A DNA stretch of 64,000 nt from Actinomycetota bacterium (GCA_009701715.1 WLJO01000001.1:1-64000); one strand, 5' to 3'; shown: positions 7,660 to 63,430, counted from the first letter of the stretch. Program-made: numbers and translations. The notes: a model not told the origin generated them from the letters alone.

Positions 7660-8523
7660 TCATCCTCCGTACTGGTAGAACCCTCGGCCGGCCTTACGAC
7701 CGAGCAGACCTGCCTCGACCATGCGCGAGAGCAGCGGCGGCGGCGCGTACAGCTGCTCGCGGAACTCCGCGTACAGACTGTCGGCGATCGCCAGACATGT
7801 GTCGAGGCCGATGAGGTCGGCGAGACGCAATGGGCCCATCGGGTGGTTGCAGCCCTCGACCATGCCGGTGTCGATGTCGTCGGCGGTGGCGAACCCGCTC
7901 TCCATCATCCGGATCGCCGAGAGGATGTACGGCACGAGCAACGCGTTCACCACGAAGCCGGCGCGGTCCTGACATCGGATCACCCGCTTGTGCAGGATCT
8001 GGTCGGCAAACTCCGAAGCTGTTGCCACCGTGCTCGGCGCCGTGAGCAGCGAGGGCACCACCTCGACGAGGCGCAGGATGGGGACCGGGTTGAAGAAGTG
8101 GATACCGACCACCTGGCCCGGGCGACTGGTGGACATGCCGAGCTTCATGATCGGGATGGAGCTCGTGTTCGAGGCGAGGATCGCTCCCTCGTCGACGACC
8201 ACCTTGTCGAGGGCATTGAACACCTCGGTCTTCAGGCCCTCGTCCTCGATGACGGCCTCGACGAGAAGCTGACGGTCCGAGAGGTCGTGGAAGTCGGTAG
8301 TGAAGCCGATGCGTGACACCGCACCGTCCCGGTCCTCCTCGGTCAACTTGTTCGCCCGGACGGCACGGTCCAGGGAGTTCAGGATGCGCTTGCGACCCGC
8401 CTCGGCGGCCGCAGCATCCACCTCCCGGACGATCACGTCTAGACCAGCGCGGGCACACACTTCGGCGATACCCGAGCCCATCAGACCGCAGCCAACAACA
8501 CCAACGCGCTCAATCGTGCTCAT
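7660..8523 (-). CDS. 3-hydroxybutyryl-CoA dehydrogenase
   Basis: A 287-residue NAD(P)-dependent enzyme that oxidises or reduces 3-hydroxyacyl-CoA. The N-terminal Rossmann motif is VGVVGCGLMGSGIAEV. The catalytic segment SSIPIMKLG leads to GIHFFNPVP with the active-site His, and a C-terminal helical domain ends FYQYGG. Length and order match the Hbd/PaaH family. ATG 8523 gives MSTIERVGVVG, and longer upstream frames add only low-complexity sequence. It is the first gene of the run that continues into the B12 subunit and pafBC. Confidence 0.92.
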   Translation of the reverse strand: MSTIERVGVVGCGLMGSGIAEVCARAGLDVIVREVDAAAAEAGRKRILNSLDRAVRANKLTEEDRDGAVSRIGFTTDFHDLSDRQLLVEAVIEDEGLKTEVFNALDKVVVDEGAILASNTSSIPIMKLGMSTSRPGQVVGIHFFNPVPILRLVEVVPSLLTAPSTVATASEFADQILHKRVIRCQDRAGFVVNALLVPYILSAIRMMESGFATADDIDTGMVEGCNHPMGPLRLADLIGLDTCLAIADSLYAEFREQLYAPPPLLSRMVEAGLLGRKAGRGFYQYGG

Positions 8524-8636
8524 GATGTCCGAAACGCTACTCGTCAGCGGGGCAGAAGGACACGCCGAGGCATCCGACGGCCGGGCACCTGACAGAGTAT
8601 GAGCCAGCAACGACATCAGCAGCCCCCCGACGACCC

Positions 8637-9839
8637 ATGCACCTCTCCCGACGATCCCTCCTTGCCCTTGGCGTCTCCGTGTTCCTCGGGGCGTGCAGCG
8701 GGTTCGACGGGGAGGATCAGCCAACGGCCACCACCGAGTACGACCCGATTCCCCGGCCACCGCTGTCCGACGCGGTCGAGTACACGGGAACGACGAACCC
8801 CTTCACGCTCGGCGTCGCCGCAGGGGACCCGGGCCCACACCGCGTCGTGATCTGGACACGTCTCGCACCCGTGCCCGGAGCCCCGGGGGGCGGTCTCGAC
8901 GGCCGCTCGTTCATCCTCACGTGGGAGGTGGCACTCGACGAGGAATTCTCCGAGGTGACCTTCAGCGGCGCCACCGTCGCCGAGGCGGGCGCGGCACACA
9001 GCGTTCACGTCGATGTCGCTGAACTCGAGCCGGCTGTGTCGTTCTGGTACCGATTTCGGTGCGGATCGCACACCAGCCCTGTCGGCCGCATGGCCACGCT
9101 CCCGCTGCACACCCTCGCCGAGACCTACACGCTCGCCGACACCTCGTGCCCGATCAACCAGGCACAGGCCGCTGTGCTGTATCGCGACATCGCCGGGAAC
9201 CCGGTCGATCTGCTCGTATTCCACGGGGACTACGTCGACATCGGCACCGACGACAACGACCTCGAGCGCATCCGGGCGCTGTACACCTCTGCGAGAACGA
9301 GCACCGAGGTGCAGGCCGCACACGCCTCGTGCGCCTGGCTCCTGGGCGGCCTCGGTCCCGATGGGGTGTCCGATGCTGCTGCGCGGGCGTGGTGGGAGCA
9401 CATGCCGGTCCGCCTGCCGCCGCCGGAGCCGGGTGAGCCCTTCCCGACGTACCGAAACTGTTCCGTGGGGAGCCTCCTCGACCTCATCGCGCTGCAACCG
9501 CGTGTCGACGGGTCCGGACGCTCCCTGCTCGGACGGGAGCAGGAGCGGTGGCTGCTCCGAGGGCCCGGCCGCACCAATGCGATCTGGCATGCCGTGTCCT
9601 TCCGTGGGGATGCATCCATCGGCGAACGCGCCGAGAAACTGCTCTTGAGTCGACCGATCGACAACATCGTGCTGCTCGGGGCAACCGCCGCAGACGAAAC
9701 CGCCCCCTTGTGGTGGCAACACATCGTCACCCCCGGACGCTGGACCACTGCGTCGCGTTTCGTCGACTCCTCGACCGGGGCAATCACGGTCTCCGACGAG
9801 GTGACCGAGCGGATCGCCCGGAGCGGCGACGCTTCCTGA
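8637..9839 (+). CDS. Degenerate PhoD-like alkaline phosphatase lipoprotein
   Basis: A 400-residue protein with a twin-arginine signal (MHLSRRSLLALGV) that ends in a lipobox (LGAC). A PhoD N-terminal domain follows (FTLGVAAGDPGPHRVVIWTR), then a shortened phosphatase domain. The GDY segment (FHGDYVDIGTDDNDLERIRA) and the AAHASCAWLL and WEHMPVRLP landmarks remain. The WDDHE metal-binding motif expected after AAHA is replaced by LLGGLG, and the GDVH motif near the C-terminus is replaced by LLGATA. Loss of these ligands at intact length suggests an inactive, possibly substrate-binding relative rather than a sequencing error. It probably sits on the outer face of the membrane. Confidence 0.75.
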   Translation: MHLSRRSLLALGVSVFLGACSGFDGEDQPTATTEYDPIPRPPLSDAVEYTGTTNPFTLGVAAGDPGPHRVVIWTRLAPVPGAPGGGLDGRSFILTWEVALDEEFSEVTFSGATVAEAGAAHSVHVDVAELEPAVSFWYRFRCGSHTSPVGRMATLPLHTLAETYTLADTSCPINQAQAAVLYRDIAGNPVDLLVFHGDYVDIGTDDNDLERIRALYTSARTSTEVQAAHASCAWLLGGLGPDGVSDAAARAWWEHMPVRLPPPEPGEPFPTYRNCSVGSLLDLIALQPRVDGSGRSLLGREQERWLLRGPGRTNAIWHAVSFRGDASIGERAEKLLLSRPIDNIVLLGATAADETAPLWWQHIVTPGRWTTASRFVDSSTGAITVSDEVTERIARSGDAS

Positions 9840-9873
9840 CCCTCGCTACGGGGCAGTCTGCTAGACCAGCGAG

Positions 9874-10299
9874 GTGCCCGGTTGGTTGCTCGTCCTCGTG
9901 ATCGTCGCTGCGTCCGTTGCGGTGATTGCCGGTGTCGTCATGCTCCTGTCGTTCCTGCTGGTGCGGCGCTCGAAAGCGGACCCATGGGTGCAGGGCGCCG
10001 GCTTCACGACGCTCGCCAACTGTCTGGGTACCGAGGGGATGGACCGCCAGATGTTGGGCACCGGGACACTCGCTGTTCTCGGCGACGAGATCCGCTTCCT
10101 CATCGCCACACCGAGGCGACAGTTGTCGATCCCACGCCGCAAGCTGAGCGTGACCCTCGAACAGTTCCCGAACCCGGGCGACTACCGGCCGGGCGACGAC
10201 CCCGCCATCGTCATCCGCTGGGCGGAGAACAAGCAGCGCCAGGCGATTGGCTTCAAGGTCCCGGACCCGAAGGCCCTCAAGGACCTGCTCCTGCGCTAA
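9874..10299 (+). CDS. Membrane-anchored protein of unknown function
   Basis: A 141-residue protein with one N-terminal transmembrane helix (residues 4-30, [17 protein letters not shown] onward) and a soluble beta-rich domain of about 105 residues. The layout resembles small actinobacterial DUF2550-type proteins with an anchored PH-like domain, but I cannot confirm that family. It starts at GTG 9874. The 3' end overlaps the convergent pgi gene by 4 bases. Confidence 0.6.
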
Positions 10300-11903
10300 C
10301 CGCTGCGGCGGGCCCGGTACCACGCGATGAGTGCGTTGGTCGACGGGTCGTGGGCTGGCACAGCCGAAGCATCCACGAGTTCAGGGGTGATCCGGTTGGC
10401 GAGTACCTTGCCGAGCTCGACGCCCCACTGGTCGAAGGGATTGATGCCCCAGATGGCGCCCTGCACGAACACGATGTGTTCATACAGCGCAATCAACTCG
10501 CCGAGGACCTTCGGCGACAGCTCGTCGGCCAAGATCATCGTGCTCGGCCGGTTGCCGAGGAACACCCGGTGGTCGATCTGCTGCTCGGGCACACCTTCGG
10601 CAGCGACCTCGGCCGGCGTCCTGCCGAACGCGAGGGCCTCGGCCTGCGCGAACAGATTGCTCATCAGCAGGTCGTGGTGGTGCTGTGGCCCTGCACCGGG
10701 ACGAGCGAACCCGATGAAGTCGCACGGGATGAGCCACGAGCCCTGATGGAGCAGTTGGTAGAACGCGTGCTGGCCATTCGTGCCGGGCTCACCCCACACC
10801 ACGGGGCCGGTGGTAGTTGCCACCGCCCGGCCGTCGAGCCCGACTGTCTTGCCGTTGCTCTCCATGTCGAGCTGTTGCAGGTACGCGGGAAAGCGACGCA
10901 GGTTGTGCGAGTACGGCAGCACCGCCTTGGTCTGCGCGCCGTGGACGTTCGAGTACCACATGCCGAGCAGCGCCATGACGACAGCAGCGTTCTGCGCGTG
11001 CGGCACCGAGACGAAGTCCTTGTCCACCGAATGGAAGCCCGAGAGGAACTGGCCGAACCGGGCGGGACCGATCGCCAGCATCACCGACAGGCCGACCGCC
11101 GAATCGACCGAGTAGCGACCACCGACCCAGTCCCAGAACCCGAACATGTTCTGGGGGTCGATACCGAACGCGCCCACCGCCGCAGCATCAGTGGACACGG
11201 CCACGAAGTGCCGGCTCACCGCTTGATCGTCGCCGAGCCTGCCGACCAGCCAATCCCGCGCCGTCCGCGCGTTGGTCAGTGTCTCGATAGTGGTGAACGT
11301 TTTCGAGCACACCACGAACAGCGTCGTCTCCGGATCGAGGCCTGCGAGCGCGCCCGCAATATCAGCGCCATCGACGTTTGACACGAAGCGGCATCGCGGG
11401 CCGTCAGCGAAGCGGTGTAGCGCGTCGTAGACCATGGCCGGGCCGAGGTCGCTGCCACCGATGCCGATGTTCACCACCACCTCGATCGGCTTTCCGGTGT
11501 GGCCCAGGTGCGTACCGTCACGAACGGCGTCGGCGAAGGCTGACATCCGGTCGAGCACACGGTGGATGTCGGGCACAACGTCGTGCCCATCGACAATGAG
11601 CGAGCTCGCGCGGGGCAGACGCAGGGCAACGTGCAACACCGCACGGTCCTCCGTGGAGTTAATGCGCTCGCCGGCGAACATCGCGGTCCGGCGCTCTGAC
11701 AATGCGCTTGCGTCCGCAACGTCGACGAGTGCGCGCAGTATGTCGTCGGTGAGCCAGTTCTTCGAGAGGTCAACGGTGAGGTCTGCGCACCCGAAGCGGT
11801 AACGCCGTGCACGATCGGGATCCGACGCAAACAGTTCGCGCAGGGGTGGCGGCGTGCCGAGCGCCAACAGGCGTCGCCACTCCGGCGTCGAGGTCAGGTC
11901 CAC
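10296..11903 (-). CDS. pgi: Glucose-6-phosphate isomerase
   Basis: A 535-residue cytoplasmic enzyme that interconverts glucose-6-phosphate and fructose-6-phosphate. Family signatures are present: [22 protein letters not shown] (sugar-phosphate binding), [13 protein letters not shown], the catalytic Glu region [10 protein letters not shown], and [18 protein letters not shown]. Length is normal for the long bacterial form. GTG 11903 was chosen because GAGGAG lies about 10 bases upstream and the frame above it lacks family similarity. It lies downstream of the ilv operon, separated by an inverted repeat that could be a terminator. Confidence 0.95.
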
Positions 11904-53368: not shown

Positions 53369-54233
53369 CTACTCCTCGCCGCTCGCGTCGTGATCGACGG
53401 CAGCTGCGACGACGTCGAGGAGGAGCCGCTCGACCGGAAGAGCTGACTGAGCGTCACGGGGAAGGTCGGCCAAGGTGTAGCCGGCGACCGCCATCGGTGT
53501 GGCGACGCCCGACAGCGCGTATCTCACCACGACATCGCTTCGCGTTCGGCACAGCAACAGCCCGATCGTGGCCGCCTCGTGCTCCGTGCGAAGTTGGTCG
53601 TCTACGACGTTGACGTAGAAGTTCAGCTTGCCGGCTGCCTCCGGCGTGAACACCGAACGCTTCAACTTGACCACCACGTATCGCTTCGTCGGGATGTGGA
53701 AGAAGAGCAGGTCGATGAAGAAGTCGTCGTCGCCGACGAGGAGCGCGTACTGGCGTCCGACAAATGCAAACCCCTGTCCGAGCTCGAGGAGGAAGCGCTC
53801 GACCTGTTCGATCAACGCGTTCTCCAACATCCGCTCCGTCGCCTGGGTCGACAGGTCGAAGGGGCTGCACCACTGCGAAGGTGCAACTTCGACATGATCT
53901 GGGCAGCGAGCACGTTGCGCGACCATCCATAGGTGATCGCCTGGTCTGCGTACCAGACCCGGTCAGACGGAGCGTCGAGGGCCGAGAGCAACTCCACGTT
54001 GTGACCCCACGGAAGTTGTGCAATGAGTCGTTGCACAACCTCGACGTCAGGCCACGCCTCGGCGAACGAGCGCATGTAGTGCAGATTCCGCCGGCCGTGC
54101 CCGCCAGTACAGCTCCACCAATTCTCGGTTGACCGCAAGCGCGGCTCGCGTCCGCGCCGATTGCACTTCCACCGTAGTTCCGGTTCACTCGTTCGAGCAG
54201 AACGGCGTAGCCACGCATCTCAAGTTCCGACAT
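53369..54233 (-). pseudogene. Decayed DUF1016 (YhcG-type PD-(D/E)XK) nuclease gene
   Basis: Pieces of one gene lie in order but in different frames. The start is MSELEMRGYAVLLERV at 54233. ARTRAALAVNRELVELYW follows in a shifted frame. Next comes an apparent deletion of the segment that normally links to RNLHYMRSFAEAWPDVEVVQ (54.08 kb), then QLPWGHNVELLSALD and YGWSRNVLAAQIMSKLH. Another shift near 53.88 kb leads to the C-terminal nuclease frame with GFAFVGRQYALLVGDDDFFI. The nuclease strand reads VVVKLKR where active relatives have an E-x-K. It is non-functional as a whole, although the last 185 codons form an intact frame. Confidence 0.82.
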
Positions 54234-54380
54234 GTCGCAACGCTCCTGAGTCCAGGGGACTTCGAGGAGCGCCAAGCGGGCACTCGATCGCCGCGCCAAA
54301 CCACTGCACCAACAGACTCGATAACCCGGCACCGGACAGATGTCCATCCTCGGGTAGTGGGCTGCACCCTTGGAAACCTA

Positions 54381-55253
54381 TTGCGCATCCAACATAGCGA
54401 ACCGGGCTATCCTGAGCGCATCGTAGGAGCACCTCGGACAACCGACAAACGTAGGTCGACGGTTCCGCGGGATCTGCCGGACTGGTTGATCTCGCACGGC
54501 AGACACTGGATCACGACCGATGAGATCGCGGCGACCCTCGCGATCGCGGTGGAACAGGTTCCACCCATCGTCGCGCGGCTACGACGTGCCGGCCGGATGT
54601 TCTCTCCTACGCGTGGTGGGTACGTACCGATCCCGGCCGAGTACCGGTCGTGGCGTGCGGTGCCGGCGAGCCACTTCATCGATTCGATGATGCGGTACCT
54701 CGGCCACGAGTACTACGTCGGGTATCTGTCCGCTGCCGAGGTCCACGGCGCAGCCCACCAACGACCGCAGGTCTTCCAGGTGATCACCGACGCCCGTCTG
54801 AACGACCGCAGCTTCGACCGAGTGACCATTGAGTTCACAACATCAGCGAAAACCGGCACGCGCCCGACCACCACCGTCAACACACCGACCGGCACGATAA
54901 AGGTCTCTGTCCCTGAGATCACGGTGCTCGACCTCGTGGCCAGCCCCGCGCATGGCGGTGGCCTGTCCAACATCGCCACAGTTCTGGGTGGACTGCTCGG
55001 TGATGGACTGCTCGACGTTGCACGCCTTGCCCAGCTCGCCACGGACTACCCGGCCGCCGTGTCACAGCGCACTGGGTGGCTAGTCGAGCGCGTCGCAACT
55101 GAAGTCGGCGTCGAGGTCGATCTTGCTCCGCTCGACGCCATCGCACGGGCCCGTCTCAAGCCGACGCCGTTGGCGGCCGCCGGCTCACGGACCGGACCGT
55201 TCAACGAGCGCTGGAACATTGTTGTCAACACCGACGTCGAGCCCGACCTGTGA
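54381..55253 (+). CDS. abiEi: Type IV antitoxin, AbiEi family
   Basis: A protein of about 290 residues. The N-terminal winged helix (PRDLPDWLISHGRHWITTDE, then IVARLRRAGRMFSPTRGGYV) and the C-terminal AbiEi domain are intact, with YVGYLSAAEVHGAAHQRPQV and VSVPEITVLDLVASP. It neutralises AbiEii and represses the operon. No ATG or GTG lies just before the PRDLPDWL start. In-frame options are GTG 54357, TTG 54381 and TTG 54486; TTG 54381 is a compromise. It overlaps abiEii by 4 bases (GTGA). Confidence 0.82.
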   Translation: MRIQHSEPGYPERIVGAPRTTDKRRSTVPRDLPDWLISHGRHWITTDEIAATLAIAVEQVPPIVARLRRAGRMFSPTRGGYVPIPAEYRSWRAVPASHFIDSMMRYLGHEYYVGYLSAAEVHGAAHQRPQVFQVITDARLNDRSFDRVTIEFTTSAKTGTRPTTTVNTPTGTIKVSVPEITVLDLVASPAHGGGLSNIATVLGGLLGDGLLDVARLAQLATDYPAAVSQRTGWLVERVATEVGVEVDLAPLDAIARARLKPTPLAAAGSRTGPFNERWNIVVNTDVEPDL

Positions 55254-56029
55254 TCCCCGCCGCGTACGTCACCGAGTGGGGCAACACGGTTGGTTGGCCG
55301 ACCGTCGATCAGGTCGAGCAAGACCTTGTGCTCTCCCGGCTGATCATCGAAATCGCCAACGACGCCTACCTCGGCAACGAGTTGATGTTCAGAGGCGGCA
55401 CATGCCTCCACAAACTGCATCTCAACCGGGCGCGGCGTTACAGCGAGGACCTCGACTACGTACGCCGCAGCGAGGGCGGCATCGGCGTGCTCCTCGACGC
55501 CGTCCGAGCGATCGCCGACCGTCTCGACATGAGCGTCACGACGAACATCACGTCGTTTCCCAAGCTTCGACTGCGCGCCCCGTTCACATCAGGCAACGGG
55601 ACGATGAGCGTGAAGATCGAGGTGAACACCTACGAACGCTCGCCGGCGCGTGAACTCGTTCAGGTGCCGTACACGGTGAACAGCCAGTGGTACCAAGGAA
55701 GCGCCGAAGTGCAGACCTTTGCCGTCGCCGAACTCGTCGCAACCAAGATCCGTGCGCTGTTCCAACGATCCAAAGGCCGCGACCTCTTCGACCTCTGGCT
55801 CGCGCTGACCGAACTCGCCGTTCCACCAGCCGACATCATCGAGTGCTTCGCCCCGTACCGACCCGACAAGCACACAGCAGCGCTCGCCGAACAGAACCTT
55901 CGGGCCAAACTCGCCGACCTCAGCTTCCGCCACGACCTCGACCAACTCAGTAGCACACGCCAGTTCGCGTATGACATCGACGACGCAGCTGAACTCGTCA
56001 TCGACCAACTTCTCCGACGACTCGCCTGA
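55250..56029 (+). CDS. abiEii: AbiEii toxin (nucleotidyltransferase fold)
   Basis: A 259-residue toxin of the AbiEii/AbiGii family. Nucleotidyltransferase motifs are present: LMFRGGTCLHKLHL, RRYSEDLDYVRR (catalytic Asp pair), then VAELVATKIRALFQRSKGRD and LFDLWLALTEL. Family members block growth or phage production by modifying tRNA or another substrate with nucleotides. It starts at GTG 55250, overlapping the antitoxin stop. The pair sits 215 bases from tRNA-Arg, a common place for defence genes. Confidence 0.9.
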   Translation: MIPAAYVTEWGNTVGWPTVDQVEQDLVLSRLIIEIANDAYLGNELMFRGGTCLHKLHLNRARRYSEDLDYVRRSEGGIGVLLDAVRAIADRLDMSVTTNITSFPKLRLRAPFTSGNGTMSVKIEVNTYERSPARELVQVPYTVNSQWYQGSAEVQTFAVAELVATKIRALFQRSKGRDLFDLWLALTELAVPPADIIECFAPYRPDKHTAALAEQNLRAKLADLSFRHDLDQLSSTRQFAYDIDDAAELVIDQLLRRLA

Positions 56030-56244
56030 TTGCTCTCTGGTGCCACCGGCGGCGCGTCGGTCCGCCCTCTCCAGTTGAGGACCCCGTCAGTGCCTCGAGT
56101 TGGCTGAGGCGATCGTCATCCTTGGCGGCCCTCTTCCCCAGCCTTCCCAATCAGGGCGAGGAATGGCCGTCAATCAAACCACACGGTCCCGATGAGAATC
56201 TATCCGAGATACTTCATATTGCCTGCTCAAGACTACTTTCTTGG

Positions 56245-56317
56245 CGCCCCCGGTAGGAATCGAACCTACGACCTGCGGTTTAGGAAACCGTTGCTCTATC
56301 CACTGAGCTACGGAGGC
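56245..56317 (-). tRNA. tRNA-Arg (anticodon CCU)
   Basis: A 73-base cloverleaf on the minus strand. It has acceptor GCCTCCG/CGGGGGC, D-stem GCTC/GAGC, anticodon loop TTCCTAA (anticodon CCT, reads AGG), T-arm CGTAGG...CCTACC with TTCGATT, and discriminator G. One A-C mismatch closes the anticodon stem. Its 5' end directly abuts the end of a transposon, so its natural upstream promoter region has been replaced. Confidence 0.94.
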
Positions 56318-56508
56318 GGGGAGTGTTCCGAATCCCCTTCCGAAATGGTCGGGGAGGGTCAGTGCACTCGGTGAGAGAGGGTATCGGCACGCTCCGGTGG
56401 CTGGCGAGGCCGGTCGAGGGGACTCGGGGCGGCTCGAGGGTGTTGAGGTCCGCGGCGGGCCGGCGTGGTGTCGGCTGATCAGGTCAGGCGTCGAGCGGTT
56501 TGCGCTGT
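56310..56508. repeat. Transposon end, copy A of a ~200-bp imperfect direct repeat
   Basis: This stretch runs from the tRNA-Arg 5' end through the 3' end of the 531-residue transposase. It recurs at 63213-63430 with the same order of features. The first 22 bases are identical, and a block of about 45 bases beginning GCACTCGGTGAGAGAGGG is also identical. It is interpreted as the terminus of a transposon family. Confidence 0.8.
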
Positions 56509-58079
56509 GGCGGCGGTTTCCATTCGCCGAACCATTCACTGATGTCTCCACCGGTGCGGTAGTGCCACGCGATGAGCGCGGTGCGATTCAGTCGGGTCTG
56601 GTAGGTGTGCAGCCAGATCCGCAGGCTGCGGTCACCGACGGTCGACACCCGGTCGTTGAACATCAGGTCCTTCAGGTGGCGGTGCATCGACTCGATGTCG
56701 TTTCGCTTCGGGAAGATCGCGTTGTAGCCCGGTGAGCCCTCGGGGAACAGACGGAGCACCTGGCTGCGCGACTCGTCGCTGTCCTCTTTGGCCGAGTACG
56801 AGTGTCGGATGTGCACGACTGCGCCGCGCAGGCTCCGGTCGATCTCGGGCAGATCGCGCACCGCCCAGTACTGCCACCAACGCCAACTGTTGTCTTTGTT
56901 GCGCGCGTTGCGTACCTGCACCGGCTCGAGCGCCACCCATTTCTTACCGTCAACGGTTGCGATGGTGATTCCGGGCCATCCGTCGACCACGAGGACCGGG
57001 TGCTGCTGCTTTGCGCCGTCGACCAGGTTGAACGTGTGCTCACCGAGTTGCAGCGACTTCGGTTGGCCCTTCGCGTTGCGATGGGTCTTGCCGACCGACG
57101 CTGTCCCGCCCGCCATCAGCCGGTCATGATTCGCCGCGTAGAGGGCCATGTCATACGCGGCGACCGGGACTGGATACCCGAGCACCTCGTTGAGCTCCAG
57201 CACCATGTCGGTGAACCGTGTGCCGTCGCTGCCTTCGGTCACATGCATCGTGGTCACGTCGAGCATCACGCGTTCGTTGACGTAGTCACTGCGCGTCGTC
57301 ACCGACACCATCCGCCGGCCGGTGCGCTTGTCACCCTTGTGGTAGGTGTCCATGTCGGGGTCGTGGCGGCGGGTGCTCGGCAAGCCGGTCTCGGGGTCGG
57401 TCGGTGGGGTGTTGAACATGCCGTTGAGCACCTTCCCGTCGCCGACGCCGACGTTGTCCCGCGACGGGTTCGTGAGCGACCCGTTCTCAGGGTCGAGCAG
57501 ACCCATATGTCGTGCGACCTTGATCGCTTCGGCGCGCTTGGCGAACCGCAAGTTCTCGATGTCGCCGAGGTACTCCTTGCGGAACCGCCACCACTGCTTG
57601 TATGTCGGCGGCTTCGGGTTGAGGCGACGTGTCGGGTCGTTCGGGTACGCGAGTTCGACCGCACGGCACAGACGCGACCAGTTCGCCGGATCGGCAAGCT
57701 CGTGTTCGGCCTTCAATGCCCGGCTTCCGCACTCGAGGATCGCTTCCCCAAACACGATCATCGACATCGCGTTCGTTTCCATGCGCCGACCCGGGCCGTC
57801 GTGCTGCATCTGCACATCGATCGCGGCGGCGCGTTCCCAGTCCGGCCCCCACACCGCGGCAGCCTCGAGGTTCTGAAGCGACGAAGCGGTGAACGGCCGC
57901 TTGGTCTTGCGACCCGGACGCAATGCCGACACCTGGCCCACACCCTTGATCCCGTCCTCGCGCTCTTCGACCGTGCTGTCGCTGCCAAGCGAGCCGAGGT
58001 CGGACAGCAAGATTGGCTGCGACACGTCAAGCGCGACACGTTCGCGCCGTTCCTTGATCCGGCCCTTCGACGCGCCCAT
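56484..58079 (-). CDS. Putative DDE-type transposase of an unclassified transposon
   Basis: A 531-residue protein. The middle of the protein has VMLDVTTMHVTEG, PVAAYDMALYAANH and, near the end, FPKRNDIESMHRHLKDLMFN, which could supply the Asp-Asp-Glu catalytic residues of an RNase H-fold transposase. Basic N- and C-terminal segments flank it. I cannot assign it to a named IS family. Its ATG overlaps the stop of an upstream coding fragment (TGATG), suggesting a two-gene element. Relic C-terminal codons of a second copy lie at 63.39-63.43 kb. Confidence 0.6.
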   Translation of the reverse strand: MGASKGRIKERRERVALDVSQPILLSDLGSLGSDSTVEEREDGIKGVGQVSALRPGRKTKRPFTASSLQNLEAAAVWGPDWERAAAIDVQMQHDGPGRRMETNAMSMIVFGEAILECGSRALKAEHELADPANWSRLCRAVELAYPNDPTRRLNPKPPTYKQWWRFRKEYLGDIENLRFAKRAEAIKVARHMGLLDPENGSLTNPSRDNVGVGDGKVLNGMFNTPPTDPETGLPSTRRHDPDMDTYHKGDKRTGRRMVSVTTRSDYVNERVMLDVTTMHVTEGSDGTRFTDMVLELNEVLGYPVPVAAYDMALYAANHDRLMAGGTASVGKTHRNAKGQPKSLQLGEHTFNLVDGAKQQHPVLVVDGWPGITIATVDGKKWVALEPVQVRNARNKDNSWRWWQYWAVRDLPEIDRSLRGAVVHIRHSYSAKEDSDESRSQVLRLFPEGSPGYNAIFPKRNDIESMHRHLKDLMFNDRVSTVGDRSLRIWLHTYQTRLNRTALIAWHYRTGGDISEWFGEWKPPPQRKPLDA

Positions 58080-58467
58080 CAGTCGGCCTGCCAGTCGAAA
58101 CCCAACGATGCAGCCGTCGCGTCGAGCGAGTTCGATCCGAGGAAACGGGTAGCAGCAACGATGCCTTCGCGCTCGAACACCTGGACGGCGGAGGCCAACG
58201 CGATCGAGCGGGCCGTCACCCGCGGGCGACCGGCAATGCGGGCAGCGACGAGTGCTTCTCGCAGGCTGACGGTCACCGCATGCGCGAGCCGGTGGGCAGG
58301 TTTACCGCCGATCACACAAAGCAGGTCGTGCGGCCCCGGACGCTTGGCTGTGAGGTACTCGCCGACCACCTCGATTCCCCACGGGGTCAGCGGGTTCGTA
58401 CGGCGGTGCCGCAAGCCCAGGGTGACCGTGCCTGAATCCCCCTGGCCTTTGTAGAAGCTCGGGTTAT
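58079..58467 (-). pseudogene. 3' fragment of the transposon's first gene, cut by IS3
   Basis: About 125 codons ending at 58079 remain in frame: SGTVTLGLRHRRTNPLTPWG through VTARSIALASAVQVFERE to ATRFLGSNSLDATAASLGFD. The 5' part is missing because an IS3-family element adjoins at about 58465. It overlaps the transposase start by one base, so it was probably the partner ORF of the same transposon. The last segment faintly recalls tyrosine-recombinase C-termini, but no catalytic Tyr is visible. Confidence 0.6.
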
Positions 58468-59399
58468 TGGATTCCAACCAGTTGGTCGGGGTGTGGTGCA
58501 GCATAGAACGCTGCTTCGAATTCGGCGGGTGGGACGTCGCCGCAGTGGCCGTGGAGGCGTGTCGTGTTGTGCCAGTGGACCCAGGCGAGGGTGCCCAGTT
58601 CGACGTCCTCGACCGTCTCCCATGGGCCTTGCTGGGGGCCGCGGATGAGTTCGGTTTTGTAGTAGCCGTTGACCGTCTCGGCCAGCGCGTTGTCATACGA
58701 ATCGCCGACGGTGCCGATCGACGGAACCGCGCCGAGCTCCGCGAGTCGTTCACCGAAACGCACGCTGGTGAATTGCGACCCGGCGTCGGAATGTGTCACC
58801 AACCCTTCGAGTCGGGTGCCGCGTGACCATGACGCCATCGACAGTGCGTCGAGGACCATGTCGGTGCGCATGTGCGCCGCGACGCGCCAACCGACGATCA
58901 TCCGGCTGTAGGCGTCGGTGATGAAACAGACGTACGCGACACCCGACCAGGTCGCCACGTAGGTGATGTCGGTGAGCCACAGACGGTTCGGGCGATCCGC
59001 GGTGAAGTCACGTTTCACCAGATCCGGTGCCCGCGCCGCGCTGTCGTCGCGGATCGTGGTCCGCACCCGACGCATCCTCGTGGCACCCTTGATCTGCATG
59101 GCCCGCATCAGGCGGGCGACCTGATCCCGGCCGATCTGATGGCCGTCGCGCAGCGCGGCCTTCCACAGTTTGTGCGCCCCGTAGACCCGGTAGTTGACCG
59201 TCCACAACGCGAGCAGGACCGGCTGCCACACGGCGTCCTGGATCGCTCTCGCGGACAGTGGACGGGTCTTGCGTGCGTAGTAGGTGGAAGGGGCGATCTT
59301 GCAGTCATGCGCGGTGAGCACACGACAGATCGGCTCGACCCCGAACCGTTCCTTGTTGACGTCGATGAACTCGACTATCGCTTCGAGCGGCGGTCGAGC
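58464..59399 (-). CDS. IS3-family transposase OrfB
   Basis: The catalytic part of the IS3 transposase. It has RFGVEPICRVLTAHDCKIAP, then the DDE core: RLWLTDITYV (Asp), GLVTHSDAGSQFTS (Asp) and GDSYDNALAETVNGYYKTEL (Glu). The frame is open further upstream, but the protein is expected to be made by -1 frameshifting from OrfA near 59.38 kb, where OrfA ends ELDRRSKR and OrfB continues with AIVEFID. It is full length. Confidence 0.9.
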   Translation of the reverse strand, partial: ARPPLEAIVEFIDVNKERFGVEPICRVLTAHDCKIAPSTYYARKTRPLSARAIQDAVWQPVLLALWTVNYRVYGAHKLWKAALRDGHQIGRDQVARLMRAMQIKGATRMRRVRTTIRDDSAARAPDLVKRDFTADRPNRLWLTDITYVATWSGVAYVCFITDAYSRMIVGWRVAAHMRTDMVLDALSMASWSRGTRLEGLVTHSDAGSQFTSVRFGERLAELGAVPSIGTVGDSYDNALAETVNGYYKTELIRGPQQGPWETVEDVELGTLAWVHWHNTTRLHGHCGDVPPAEFEAAFYAAPHPDQLVGIQ

Positions 59400-59710
59400 T
59401 CCGCCCCGAAGAAAGACGCTGCGGCTTCCAAGATCCCGTTCACCCGTCGCAACTCGCGGTTCTCGGCCTCCAGCTCGCGCATCCGCTGCCGGTCCTCGGT
59501 CGTCAGGCCGGCCTTCTCGCCGGCGTCGATGTCGGCCTGGCGCACCCACTGGCGAACCGACTCGACCCCGTAGCCCAACTGGTCCGCGATCCGTTGCACC
59601 GCCGCGTATCCGCGGCCCTCCTCGCGAGCCAACAGGACCAACCGCACAGCCTGTTCCTTCTGCTGCTGCGTGTACCGCCGATTCTTCAGCAGAACCTTCT
59701 TCGATGACAT
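59375..59710 (-). CDS. IS3-family transposase OrfA
   Basis: A 111-residue DNA-binding protein with a helix-turn-helix (YTQQQKEQAVRLVLLAREEG, then GYGVESVRQWVRQADIDAGE) and a leucine-zipper-like segment (MRELEAENRELRRVNGILEA). It overlaps OrfB and supplies the N-terminus of the frameshifted transposase. ATG 59710 follows GAGGAGAGTGCC. Confidence 0.9.
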   Translation of the reverse strand: MSSKKVLLKNRRYTQQQKEQAVRLVLLAREEGRGYAAVQRIADQLGYGVESVRQWVRQADIDAGEKAGLTTEDRQRMRELEAENRELRRVNGILEAAASFFGAELDRRSKR

Positions 59711-59765
59711 GGCACTCTCCTCACTTCAAAGGTAGAGAACCTCCATCAAAGCCAGTGGGATTCAG

Positions 59766-60029
59766 ATGCGCCAGGCCGACATCGATGACGGCATCAAGGA
59801 CGGGCTCACCACGGCCGAGCAGTCCGAGGTCGTCCAGCTGCGTCGTGACAAGCGGCGCCTGGAGATGAAAGTCGAGATCCTTCGGCGGGCGACAGCGTTC
59901 TTCGCCCGCGATCACCTCCCAAAATGAGTTACCCGCTGGTCCGTGAACTGGCCGCCGAAGCAATCCCGGTGCGGTTGACCTGTGGGGTGCTCGGCTTCTC
60001 TACCCAGGCGTTCTACAAGTGGCGCAAAC
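59766..60029 (+). pseudogene. Remnant of a second IS3-family element
   Basis: On the plus strand the 3' part of an OrfA (MRQADIDDGIKDGLTTAEQS, then EVVQLRRDKRRLEMKVEILR to FFARDHLPK, stop at 59927) overlaps the start of an OrfB (ATG 59924, MSYPLVRELAAEAIPVRLTC). OrfB is cut off at 60029 by an IS6 inverted repeat. The 5' side is cut by the intact IS3 element. It differs in sequence and orientation from that element. Confidence 0.85.
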
Positions 60030-60853
60030 GGCTCTGTTGCGTTGGCGGATCGCGAGGCGCGCTGAGCGACCGGTGGTGGCTCCGTCGAGTTCAGACCGCT
60101 CTGAGAAGCTCGTCGAACGCTGCCGCGACGATCACCTTCGGTTAGGCGTGAACGCCGAGTTCGTAGTGGTCCCGCCGCAGGTTCTGGAAGAACGCGTGAC
60201 CGCGGATCACAACAGTCGCCGTCCGATCCTGTTTCAAACCGCGCATCGGCCTCAGCCGCGCCTTGAGGCGTACATGGTCGGCTTCCACCCGGTTGTTCGC
60301 GTACTGGGTGGTGTCGTGCGCGGCATCGGGCACCACCTCGACGATCGCTCGCCCCAACGCTGGCGACCGATCCGTCGTCACCACCCCCGGTACGCCATGG
60401 GCACCGATCGCCGCCGTGAAGAACCGCTTCGCAGCCTGGGTGTCGCGCCTGGATGACACCAACACGTCGATGACCTGGCGGTGTTGGTCCACGGCGCGGT
60501 ACACGTAGCGCCACACACCGGCGACCTTGACGTAGGTCTCGTCAACGAACCAGCGGTAACCCACCGCGTGCCGACACGGCCGGGCCGCGTCGATGACCAC
60601 CGGCGTGAACCGTTGCACCCACCGGAACAAGGTGACGTGATCAACGTCGATCCCGCGTTCAGCGAGCAGTTCCTCGAGATCGCGGTACGAGAGGCCGTAC
60701 CGCAGATACCAGCGCACCGCCAGCAGGATCACCTCGGGCGGGAATTGGAACCCGACGAACGACACACTCGCCTGACGACACACCGGGAAACGACGACGCC
60801 TCATCCCCACAGACTCCCCCAGGTGTGGGTGCCGCAGCCAACGCAACAGACCC
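60030..60853 (-). mobile_element. IS6-family insertion sequence
   Basis: 824 bases bounded by inverted repeats GGCTCTGTTGCGTTGGC (60030) and GGGTCTGTTGCGTTGGC (reverse from 60853), typical of IS6/IS26-type ends. It contains one transposase gene. The 8-base flanks (GCGCAAAC and CCTAGGTG) do not match, so it lacks a target duplication and probably marks a rearrangement or cointegrate. Confidence 0.9.
60142..60804 (-). CDS. IS6-family transposase
   Basis: A 220-residue DDE transposase. An N-terminal helix-turn-helix region (VRWYLRYGLSYRDLEELLAE, then VDHVTLFRWVQRF) leads to the catalytic residues in YRWFVDETYVKVAGVWRYVY (Asp), VVTTDRSPALGRA (Asp) and YANNRVEADHVRLKARLRPM (Glu). ATG 60804 lies inside the inverted repeats. 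The frame is intact, so the element may still be active. Confidence 0.93.
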   Translation of the reverse strand: MRRRRFPVCRQASVSFVGFQFPPEVILLAVRWYLRYGLSYRDLEELLAERGIDVDHVTLFRWVQRFTPVVIDAARPCRHAVGYRWFVDETYVKVAGVWRYVYRAVDQHRQVIDVLVSSRRDTQAAKRFFTAAIGAHGVPGVVTTDRSPALGRAIVEVVPDAAHDTTQYANNRVEADHVRLKARLRPMRGLKQDRTATVVIRGHAFFQNLRRDHYELGVHA

Positions 60854-60952
60854 CCTAGGTGTAGGTCAAAAGGTCTCGCCCTGCGGCCAACTTTTCTGAC
60901 CGCGCCCTCGGGGGGCCTTGATCGGGCGGCTCGCGCGCGAATGATCGCGGTG

Positions 60953-62797
60953 CTACAACACGTTCCTGTATTTCGATCCCGTGAACCCACCTGTTCCGGC
61001 AGCGTTGGTGGCCGCGACCCGGATGTAGTAGCGCCGTCCGGAGGTGAGTCCGGTACACGTGTAGGTCAGGCTCGTTGACACTCCGTCGGCGATTGTCGAC
61101 CAGGCCTTGCCGTCGGTGGAGATCTGAATGACGTAGTCGGTGATTGGAGCACCGCCGTTGCTCGTCGGGGTCTTCCACGTCGCGACGATCTTCCCGACCT
61201 GAGCGGTCAGCGCGAGCGATGACGGGGATCCGGGGGGCCTCGCTGAGATCGCCGTTGCCTGACTGCTGAATGAACTTCTGCCTTCGCCGTTCACAGCTGC
61301 AACTCTGAAGGTGTACGTCGTTCCCTGCTTCAGGCCGGTCACCGTTGCACGAGTTGAGGTCGAGGTACCGTCGGCGAACGTTGTCCAAGTGGTACCACCG
61401 ATTGAGCTTTGGACGACGTAGTCGACGATTGGCCGACCGCCGTCCGCTGGGGCCGTCCAAGTGATTCCGATCGTTGCGTCGGGGTTCGAGGTCGCAGCGA
61501 GCTGTGTCGGGGCTAGCGGAACTGTTGCCGGCACGACGGCGATTGACACTGGCCTAAGGCGATCTGTGGTTGTTCCGTCGCCGAGCTGGCCCCACTGGTT
61601 CTCACCCCAGCAGCCGAGGGTGCCGGTCGCGGACACAGCGCATGCATGGTCGTATCCCGCTGCCAAGGCCGAAATGGTTTCGGACCCAAACATCTGGTCG
61701 TCAACGCTCACGGGGAGTGTTCGGCTAGTCGTCGTGTTGTCACCTAGCTGGCCTGACGTGTTGCGGCCCCAGCATGCGACATTGCCCGAACCTGTGAGGA
61801 CGCAAGTGAATGCGTTCCCTGCCGATACCGCGACAACAGTCTGGCCGGCCAAGGCCCCACCGGTGACTGCCACGGGAACGCTGCGATTCGTCGTGGTGCC
61901 ATCGCCGAGCTGCCCATCAGTGTTCCCCCCCCAACACGCAAGCGTTTGGACGATGGTGATGGCGCACGTGTGATTGAGCCCGGCGCTGATCGCAACTACC
62001 TGGGTGCCCGCAAGAGCGCCGCCTGTGATGAGTACCGGCGTCGCCCGGTTGGTTGTCGAGCTGTCACCGACTTGACCGACGCTGTTGTAGCCCCAGCACG
62101 AGGTGAGCTTCGTTGTGGTGATGGCACAGGTGTGCATTTCGCCCGCTTCGATCGAGGTGTAGCCCTGCGTTGCTACCCAACGAGGGCTGGTGATCGCGTT
62201 GTCGGTGGAACCGTCTCCAACTTGGCCGGTGTTATTGAAGCCCCAGCACGATGCCCAGCTTGTAGCAGCGATGACGCAGCCGTGCGCTGCGCCAACTGAG
62301 ACTTGCGATGAGGTCTGTCCCGTCAGAACGCCGCCGGATGCTGACACGAACGTGTTTCGAAACGTCTGGGTGCCATCGCCCAACTGGCCCCAGTAGTTGC
62401 TCCCACTGCAGGCGACAGCGCCGGCGGTGGTTAGGGCGCACGTGTGGTCCTGGCCTGCTGAGACCTGGCGAACCGATGCTCCGGACAGAGCGCCACCCAG
62501 CACGAGAACGGGAATTGAACGGTTCGTGTTCGAGCCATCGCCGAGTTGGCCATATGTATTGGCGCCCCAGCAGGCGAGGCGTCCGTCGAGAGTGACAGCA
62601 CAAGTGAAGCTCCGACCCGCAGTCACTGTCGTCACCGCTTGGCCAGCTGGCGAAGCTGAGGCTTGCCGTGCCGGACTTCCTGCTACGACGAGAGTAAGGA
62701 GGCACATCACCAACATCATCACCGTCGGGCGCACGCCTCGTCGAATTGGGGTTGAAGGCGACGCACCTAGTCGCTCATGAGACGTATTTAGAGCCAT
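60953..62797 (-). CDS. Secreted RCC1-repeat/fibronectin type III protein
   Basis: A 614-residue protein. A signal peptide (about residues 1-50, with VMMLVMCLLTLVVAG) precedes seven RCC1-like repeats with the recurring pattern C-W-G-x-N-x-x-G-Q-L-G-D-G, each about 50 residues (about 55-410). Two fibronectin type III domains follow (about 425-515 and 515-605). It probably forms a beta-propeller adhesin or binding protein on the cell surface. ATG 62797 has GGAGGG 6 bases upstream. It ends abruptly after the second FN3 domain. Base composition is less GC-biased than in the flanking genes, and it sits between mobile elements, suggesting transfer. Confidence 0.88.
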   Translation of the reverse strand: MALNTSHERLGASPSTPIRRGVRPTVMMLVMCLLTLVVAGSPARQASASPAGQAVTTVTAGRSFTCAVTLDGRLACWGANTYGQLGDGSNTNRSIPVLVLGGALSGASVRQVSAGQDHTCALTTAGAVACSGSNYWGQLGDGTQTFRNTFVSASGGVLTGQTSSQVSVGAAHGCVIAATSWASCWGFNNTGQVGDGSTDNAITSPRWVATQGYTSIEAGEMHTCAITTTKLTSCWGYNSVGQVGDSSTTNRATPVLITGGALAGTQVVAISAGLNHTCAITIVQTLACWGGNTDGQLGDGTTTNRSVPVAVTGGALAGQTVVAVSAGNAFTCVLTGSGNVACWGRNTSGQLGDNTTTSRTLPVSVDDQMFGSETISALAAGYDHACAVSATGTLGCWGENQWGQLGDGTTTDRLRPVSIAVVPATVPLAPTQLAATSNPDATIGITWTAPADGGRPIVDYVVQSSIGGTTWTTFADGTSTSTRATVTGLKQGTTYTFRVAAVNGEGRSSFSSQATAISARPPGSPSSLALTAQVGKIVATWKTPTSNGGAPITDYVIQISTDGKAWSTIADGVSTSLTYTCTGLTSGRRYYIRVAATNAAGTGGFTGSKYRNVL

Positions 62798-63195
62798 ATT
62801 GCGCCCTCCTTGGGAGCGAAATTCCATTAGGAAATCACATTGAAGAGTCTGCTCAGGGGCGTGGAAAGTGTTGACGCCTCGCTTGGTCTTTACTGGTAAT
62901 GACGTTACTCGGTGCCAATCGTATCTGTTCACTTGGGGCAGACCCGGGTTCCGTGGAGGCTCTTCTGTGCCCTAAGGACGACCGATGATTGACAGCAAAT
63001 CATCTCACCTCGGACTGCGTTAACTGTCGCAAGCTCCACGCATCGTCCGTCGATCGCCGTGAAGAACTCGCTTTAGCCCTAGCCGGGCCGAATCGGCAGA
63101 TGGCTCGCCAGGGCAGAGTTGGCGTTGCATTCCAGGAATCGGCGTTTCGCATTCCAAACCGCCGCTGGCACGCCTACCGAGAGCAGGGCGGGAGC

Positions 63196-63249
63196 ATTTC
63201 GGAAGACTCCCCACGGAGGCGGGGAGTGTTCCGATTCCTCTTCCGAAAT
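63196..63249. repeat. Terminal hairpin of the relic transposon end
   Basis: Outer arms ATTTCGGAAGA (63196) and TCTTCCGAAAT (63239) and inner arms ACTCCCC (63206) and GGGGAGT (63221) form a nested hairpin. Its 8-base loop is ACGGAGGC (63213-63220), identical to the first eight bases of tRNA-Arg(CCU) read on this strand. At copy A only the right half of this structure remains, joined to the tRNA. Confidence 0.75.
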
Positions 63250-63430
63250 GGTTGGGCCATGTCAGCGAAGGGCTCGTCGCACTCGGTGAGAGAGGGTATC
63301 GGCACGCTCCGGTGGCTGGCGAGGACGGTCGAGGGGGCTCGGGGCGGCTCAGGTGCGTGCCGGGCAGGCGTTGTGGCGGCTGATCAAGTCAGGCGGCGGA
63401 CGTTCGGCGTTGTGGGAGTGGTCGTTGCTT
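63213..63430. repeat. Transposon end, copy B of the direct repeat
   Basis: This matches 56310-56508. It includes the equivalent of the transposase C-terminus on the minus strand (LPQRRTSAA then stop at 63389, compared with PPQRKPLDA in the intact gene). The rest of the transposase is absent, so this is a relic of a related copy. Confidence 0.78.

Follow-up and report, generated by a model that had tools for sequence, protein, structure and literature searches.

A family of two-gene cargo transposons that very probably insert in one orientation before nucleotide 1 of bacterial tRNA genes, with a proposed mechanism

Introduction

How did the eight bases that begin a tRNA-Arg(CCU) gene come to lie also at the centre of a nested inverted repeat elsewhere in the same 64,000-nucleotide stretch of Actinomycetota DNA (the window)? 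An earlier interpretation, made from the sequence alone (the sequence-only reading), took the repeat for the hairpin end of a transposon, whose loop had been joined to a matching core in the tRNA gene. Here, we compared the locus with its relatives in other genomes. The arrangement is very probably the product of a family of cargo transposons with two genes of its own, which inserts in one orientation before tRNA nucleotide 1, and for which we propose a mechanism.

The tRNA-Arg(CCU) locus

By direct reading, positions 63195-63250 form the nested inverted repeat CATTTCGGAAG-ACTCCCC-ACGGAGGC-GGGGAGT-...-CTTCCGAAATG, in which ACGGAGGC occupies 63213-63220. ACGGAGGC is also found at 56310-56317, where it is the reverse complement of nucleotides 1-8 of tRNA-Arg(CCU) (GCCTCCGT), the match that the sequence-only reading had correctly picked out. 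The sequence from 56318 is 78% identical over ≈200 bp to that at 63221-63415, including the 3' end of a transposase gene. On the minus strand, the order on the far side is the right end of an older copy (...CATTTCGGAAGAGGAATCGGAACACTCCCC), then GCCTCCGT, then the left end of a younger copy (GGGGAGTCTTCCGAAATG...); on the tRNA side, the right end of the younger copy (...CATTTCGGAAGGGGATTCGGAACACTCCCC) is followed by GCCTCCGTAGCTCAG..., the tRNA-Arg(CCU) itself. The younger element (element 1) therefore extends from 56318 to 63212 (6,895 bp), with tRNA nucleotides 1-8 present at both of its ends as an 8-bp duplication. The features of the locus are:

56242-56317, minus: tRNA-Arg(CCU), the target gene, 5' end at 56317 (ARAGORN)
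56310-56317, minus: target duplication, copy on the tRNA side, GCCTCCGT, tRNA nucleotides 1-8
56318-56483, minus: right end (RE) of element 1, with two repeats of the TTCCGAA / TTCGGAA type
56484-58079, minus: ORF of the 531-aa DDE transposase (D214, D310, E463; predicted Tn5-like fold)
58079-58431, minus: C-terminal remnant of the partner gene (catalytically dead tyrosine-recombinase fold)
58432-59765, minus: IS3-family insertion inside the partner gene, inverted repeats 58432-58460 and 59737-59765
60142-60990, minus: IS6/IS240-type transposase gene, a secondary insertion
60953-62932, minus: probable cargo, a 659-aa RCC1-repeat / fibronectin-III protein
63174-63212, minus: left end (LE) of element 1, GGGGAGTCTTCCGAAATG..., inverted repeat of the RE
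63213-63220, minus: target duplication, far copy (GCCTCCGT), the "loop" of the supposed hairpin
63221-63415, minus: older element 2, right end and transposase 3' remnant, 78% identical to the RE of element 1

The terminal CCCC of the RE of element 1 abuts tRNA nucleotide 1, and a -10-like hexamer, TACCCT, is located at -66. The partner remnant overlaps the start of the transposase gene (TGATG). Because the IS3 insertion breaks the partner gene, the window copy has probably lost its autonomy, even though its transposase frame remains open; the N-terminal part of the partner is absent from 59767-60141. This interval, between the IS3 element and the IS6-type gene, contains what appears by eye to be a second IS3-type orfA fragment. 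Outside the element, directly past the 3' end of tRNA-Arg(CCU), an AbiEi/AbiEii-type pair (type IV toxin-antitoxin family) lies at 54129-56029.

As read from these junctions, what looks like a hairpin is a pair of inverted ends, one from each of two tandem copies, that meet across the 8-bp duplication. Such hairpins were present only where two copies abut, so the view of the hairpin as a transposon end was rejected, and a terminator or a single-strand recombination site was ruled out on the same observation.

Insertion site, duplication and tandem arrays

An empty counterpart of an occupied site was found in one clean pair, at tRNA-Lys(UUU). The pair comes from two relatives in another genus of the family. 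In G949, the site is free and reads ...GTTTCCTCGCGCGCCC/GCCCCTCTAGCTCAATGG (slashes mark boundaries), whereas in G948 it is occupied and reads ...GTTTCCTCGCGCGCCC/GCCCCTCT/GGGGGCGGCGCGAAACCC ... GGGTTCTGCACCGCCCCCC/GCCCCTCTAGCTCAATGG. The two flanks are 98.6% and 99.3% identical, the insert is 1,861 bp long and GCCCCTCT is duplicated. The insert encodes two small proteins (219 and 188 aa) that matched nothing in Pfam. Of the transposase gene it retains a stub of the 3' end, and it is thus a non-autonomous cargo unit. A second candidate pair, at tRNA-Arg (G797/G752), was set aside because it differs by more than a simple insertion. No same-genus empty site was found at tRNA-Arg or tRNA-Thr, where congeners were occupied wherever readable, with different upstream content.

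The duplicated eight bases follow the local tRNA, being GCCCCTCT at tRNA-Lys, GGGGACGT at tRNA-Ala and GCCCGTGT at tRNA-Thr; ACGGAGGC, previously regarded as a fixed core or loop, is therefore neither, as elements elsewhere carry the first eight bases of their own tRNA. End alignment gave a duplication of 8 bp at the window, L036 and L109, and of 8 or 9 bp at L249, L112 and L142. The elements begin with GGG(G) or AGGG and end in short inverted repeats (GGG(G).../...CCCC), and the RE carries TTTTC-type repeats spaced by 12 bp. Left ends were located at a minority of loci.

Thirteen tandem junctions of the form RE/tRNA-prefix/LE were identified, counting that of the window and leaving aside the G949/G948 pair; a few are degenerate. 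At L110, L126 (two junctions), L143, L146, L147 and L037, the RE is followed by the first 7-8 bases of a tRNA-like sequence and then by another left end, and these loci look like inner members of tandem arrays. The junctions at L146, L147 and L037 are less regular; at L037, the eight bases are those of a tRNA-Phe ≈5 kb further on. The second junction at L126, GCCCGCGCCCGCGT, has 14 bases rather than 8, with a 6-base addition beside the duplication. Recurring in 46 loci (see below) and in these 13 tandem junctions, the coincidence of eight bases seen in the window is real and far beyond chance. Comparison of the loci shows precise insertion before tRNA nucleotide 1 with an 8-bp duplication, in one orientation, with tandem stacking and with cargo.

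Distribution and target tRNA genes

In whole-genome searches, the 531-aa protein had matches in 23 of 396 genomes sampled across the phylum; the same-order set gave 43 of 397 and the same-family set 22 of 221, counting the genome of the window. A scan of ≈85,000 species genomes yielded 13 loci, nearly all in Actinomycetota and mostly in Acidimicrobiia where classified. Plasmids, annotated phages and viral contigs were also searched as carriers, with no match.

At 46 of the loci with a readable transposase 3' end, a tRNA gene lies on the same strand, usually 160-190 bp past the stop codon, with the terminal CCC of the element abutting tRNA nucleotide 1, always in one orientation. By our estimate, a tRNA gene would start on the same strand within 250 bp by chance in ≈0.2% of cases (44 tRNAs, 2.8-Mb genome). 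The loci include some mutual close relatives, most of the genomes are draft MAGs, and nearly all come from one order of Actinomycetota. The safer count is 45, since L039, a sister-clade member, shows no end motif; its link to a tRNA may be due to chance. The targets are tRNA-Arg (CCU, UCU, CCG), Lys-UUU, Thr (UGU, CGU, GGU), Phe-GAA and Ala-UGC. Both the suggestion of a site-specific element joining at the tRNA 5' end and the expectation that other copies would adjoin tRNA-Arg or other tRNAs were thus borne out.

All 46 targets contain T8-AGCTCA-14, compared to 22 of the 44 tRNAs in the window's genome. Because this sequence is constant while the eight bases vary between tRNAs, the family uses no fixed 8-base core; what the targets have in common sits just downstream of the eight bases. 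Only two of the 44 tRNAs in the window's genome, Arg-CCU and Thr-UGU, carry an RE, in both cases with transposase sequence behind it. On the transposase tree, the target isoacceptor changes at least 10 times, compared to 12.3 times with shuffled labels. From these changes, we conclude that lineages switch tRNA; strict inheritance of the target by transposase lineage was rejected, as the clustering is weak.

Most loci that lack an adjacent tRNA also fit this pattern, as the apparent inner array members listed above do. L131 runs into a tRNA truncated by the contig end. At L034, an exception, the RE is followed by non-tRNA sequence. L035, L117 and L121, from the sister clade, have two transposase-like genes with one or two dead-recombinase partners between them and no tRNA nearby, possibly representing a larger system with another target. 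L044 (CAMDCC010000086.1) is on a contig labelled as a Bifidobacterium breve MAG; its element is very close to those of Acidimicrobiia-type MAGs, and the contig is probably misbinned. In one MAG with 7% contamination (G956), two different tRNA-Arg(CCU) genes each carry an RE (L160 and L159), which may reflect contamination or two copies.

The transposase and its partner

Searches of Pfam, NCBIfam and PHROGs gave no confident match to the transposase, in keeping with its earlier description as unclassified; Pfam and NCBIfam scores stayed below the cut-off. An AlphaFold2 model made from a 30-sequence alignment was confident (pLDDT = 85.8), and the best Foldseek match was the Tn5 transposase, with Z = 16.6 over 289 residues upon re-alignment, followed by piggyBac (Z = 12.1); the best TnsB chain reached Z = 9.5. 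The DDE triad, D214-D310-E463, is conserved in 27, 29 and 30 of the 30 sequences, respectively. Its spacers are 95 and 152 residues, the second slightly above the D(60-110)D(100-150)E range of the IS4 family, whose triad sits in an RNase H fold with an insert. A motif of the Y(2)R(3)E(6)K type surrounds E463, with Y or F in 28/30, R in 30/30 and E in 30/30 sequences, while the K position is K in 14/30 and D or E in 16/30; in the window transposase, the motif is complete save for a change of Y to F. We infer that the transposase is a DDE enzyme of Tn5-like fold that cuts and joins.

At the intact loci examined, a partner gene (≈325 aa) is located directly upstream of the transposase gene, often overlapping its start. 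The partner matched XerD in a profile search (E = 3.9e-15), and its fold matches Xer, lambda integrase and Cre. The catalytic Tyr and the box-II His were present in none of 23 aligned partners, Arg-I in 9/23 and Arg-II in 12/23. L030 has an intact pair, with the partner at 8225-9205 and the transposase at 9209-10618; in its partner, no zinc-finger pattern was seen by eye, and the N-terminal 41 residues were modelled at low confidence. Having a tyrosine-recombinase fold without the catalytic tyrosine, the partner is probably the target reader, a role to which conservation and analogy point.

A promoter carried by the right end

In the window's genome, 25 of 40 free tRNAs are preceded by a TANNNT hexamer whose first base lies between -16 and -25. 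None of the 46 occupied tRNAs has one there; instead, 37 of 46 have TANNNT at -56 to -75 (≈-65), where ≈4 would be expected from shuffles of both intervals. We infer that the RE brings a promoter-like element to a fixed place, substituting for the displaced native tRNA promoter. The sequence-only reading had the promoter region of the tRNA replaced. The native region is indeed displaced, but it is not simply lost, since the RE comes with a conserved -10-like hexamer. The essential tRNA thus appears to survive by means of a brought-in promoter while foreign genes accumulate beside it.

Proposed mechanism and alternatives

In the mechanism that we propose, the Tn5-like DDE transposase would carry out both cutting and joining. 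The dead tyrosine-recombinase partner would recognise T8-AGCTCA-14, in the D-arm region of the tRNA gene, and set the transposase 8 bp upstream. Insertion duplicates tRNA nucleotides 1-8, by which the tRNA is rebuilt intact, and the RE would provide a promoter, so that tRNA expression could be maintained. Repeated insertion at one tRNA generates tandem arrays of the form RE/8 bp/LE, as in the window, and cargo elements with ends and only a transposase 3' stub would be moved in trans. A more far-reaching view, to which we give a probability of roughly 0.55, is that of a bacterial class of programmed-site transposon in which a Tn5-type transposase is recruited by a dead tyrosine recombinase reading a shared D-arm sequence, with a replacement promoter at each insertion and integron-like stacking of non-autonomous cargo at tRNA 5' ends.

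Of the alternatives, the one that survives best keeps the same DDE transposition and duplication, but assigns target reading to the transposase or to a host factor acting at tRNA genes, leaving the dead recombinase a part in end pairing or regulation. The assignment of target reading to the partner was, after all, drawn from conservation and analogy, and the IS1202-family transposase targets dif-like sites alone, possibly via bound XerC (PMC10132070). However, at those intact loci that were examined the partner sits immediately upstream of the transposase, often overlapping it, and it retains the DNA-binding fold of a recombinase without the catalytic residues; moreover, target selection by a dead tyrosine recombinase has been proven for TnsF in Tn6022 (PMC10293859). 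We consider reading by the transposase or a host factor possible, if rather unlikely. With two proteins, the question of what reads the tRNA gene becomes directly testable.

A classical tyrosine-recombinase island, in which the 8 bp would be the crossover core, the inverted repeats the recombinase arms (as in loxP) and the partner the integrase, would account for the 8-bp core between inverted repeats at tandem junctions; the fold of the partner also fits, and tRNA genes are the usual targets of integrases. However, the nucleophilic Tyr and the box-II His are lacking in 23 of 23 partners, and a DDE transposase with conserved catalytic residues shares the operon. The 8 bp, furthermore, differ between tRNA-Arg, Lys, Ala and Thr loci, even among close relatives, and this disfavours an integrase island, because duplications follow the local tRNA and fixed cores do not. 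Such an island is therefore very improbable. A terminal hairpin whose loop was joined to a matching core in the tRNA, as initially proposed, is scarcely tenable: inverted repeats do flank ACGGAGGC, but single ends abut tRNAs without any hairpin, other elements have other eight-base sequences, and the G949/G948 pair contradicts it. Draft MAG assemblies and the abundance of GC-rich hairpins might suggest a chance hairpin resembling a terminator, or repeats wrongly joined at tRNA genes during assembly, but we give this next to no credence, as the same anatomy is seen at 46 loci, one of them in a genome assembled as a single contig (G550, L127), and again in the empty/occupied pair, whose flanks match.

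Relation to known systems

Parts of what we propose have each been described on their own, namely IS4-type enzymes, dead recombinases that act as selectors, and eukaryotic tRNA-specific DNA transposons (Dada). The IS4 family is marked by the DDE triad and the Y(2)R(3)E(6)K motif, and its IS50 subgroup makes duplications of 8-9 bp (PMC2266710). The window family resembles the IS50/Tn5 subgroup in its Tn5-like fold, DDE triad and 8(-9)-bp duplication, about one helix turn long, and in part in its YREK-type motif, where D or E replaces the K in 16/30 sequences. It differs in having GGG(G) ends, where IS4 elements have 5'-CA/CT, and in possessing a second gene, a tRNA target and cargo, while IS4 elements have a single gene.

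Tn6022 and its Tn7-like relatives are likewise DDE transposons with an inactivated tyrosine-recombinase partner, conserved-gene insertion and cargo, and the dead recombinase of Tn6022, TnsF, is its target selector (PMC10293859). TnsF, which carries N-terminal zinc fingers, acts with TniQ, TnsC and TnsAB at comM, whereas the window family has two genes, a Tn5-like rather than TnsB-like transposase and tRNA targets; within the two-gene operon, neither a TnsC AAA+ regulator nor TniQ/TnsD was seen. The 5-bp duplication and 5'-TGT ends of Tn7-like elements also contrast with the 8 bp and GGG(G) ends found here. With this partner, a dead tyrosine recombinase would be serving as target reader for a second time, alongside a transposase of quite another type.

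Dada elements are DDE transposons of eukaryotes with specificity for tRNA/snRNA genes; where they insert in tandem, the duplication lies between the copies (PMC3706591). The window family shares the tRNA specificity and the tandem copies split by a duplication, but Dada inserts inside multicopy tRNA genes with 6-7 bp duplications, whereas here the tRNA gene is left whole. The IS1202 family (ISAjo2) combines target-specific, one-orientation DDE insertion with a fixed spacing from a site bound by protein (PMC10132070), as here, but at dif sites, with a TnsB-like transposase, a 5-bp duplication, TGT ends and no second gene.

The window family resembles tRNA-targeting integrase islands in keeping the tRNA gene whole through a duplicated stretch and in forming a cargo hot spot. 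These islands (ICEs, prophages) usually enter the 3' half of the tRNA via an active tyrosine recombinase, whereas the window family uses the 5' end and a DDE enzyme. A search of the open-access literature revealed no DDE transposon of bacteria that targets the 5' ends of tRNAs; the tRNA-aimed DDE transposons described there are eukaryotic, and the window family would be their bacterial, 5'-side counterpart. It would also represent a simple two-protein system for writing DNA beside essential, conserved sites that are kept working.

Cargo

The elements reach 13 kb in size, and cargo is often found in those that retain only the transposase 3' end. Among the bounded elements, L109 carries a restriction-modification system, L112 a sulfatase together with GH10 and GH1 glycosidases, L037 an RTX-repeat protein, L142 an alpha/beta hydrolase and L036 lipoprotein-like genes. 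Overall, the cargo is varied and includes secreted proteins. In a congener (G957), the same RE at tRNA-Arg(CCU) is preceded by a glycosyltransferase and a GH130-like gene (left end not located), and another RE is found at tRNA-Thr. The 5' flank of the tRNA behaves as a cargo hot spot, and the proposed transposon would explain such hot spots (restriction-modification, glycosidases) upstream of tRNAs in this little-studied group of Actinomycetota.

At a separate locus (L280; G794:C20:60717-60764), nucleotides 31-78 of tRNA-Arg(CCU) are repeated without a mismatch 10.5 kb downstream of the tRNA. This copy resembles the trace of a classical 3'-side integrase island, and the tRNA looks like a hot spot on both sides.
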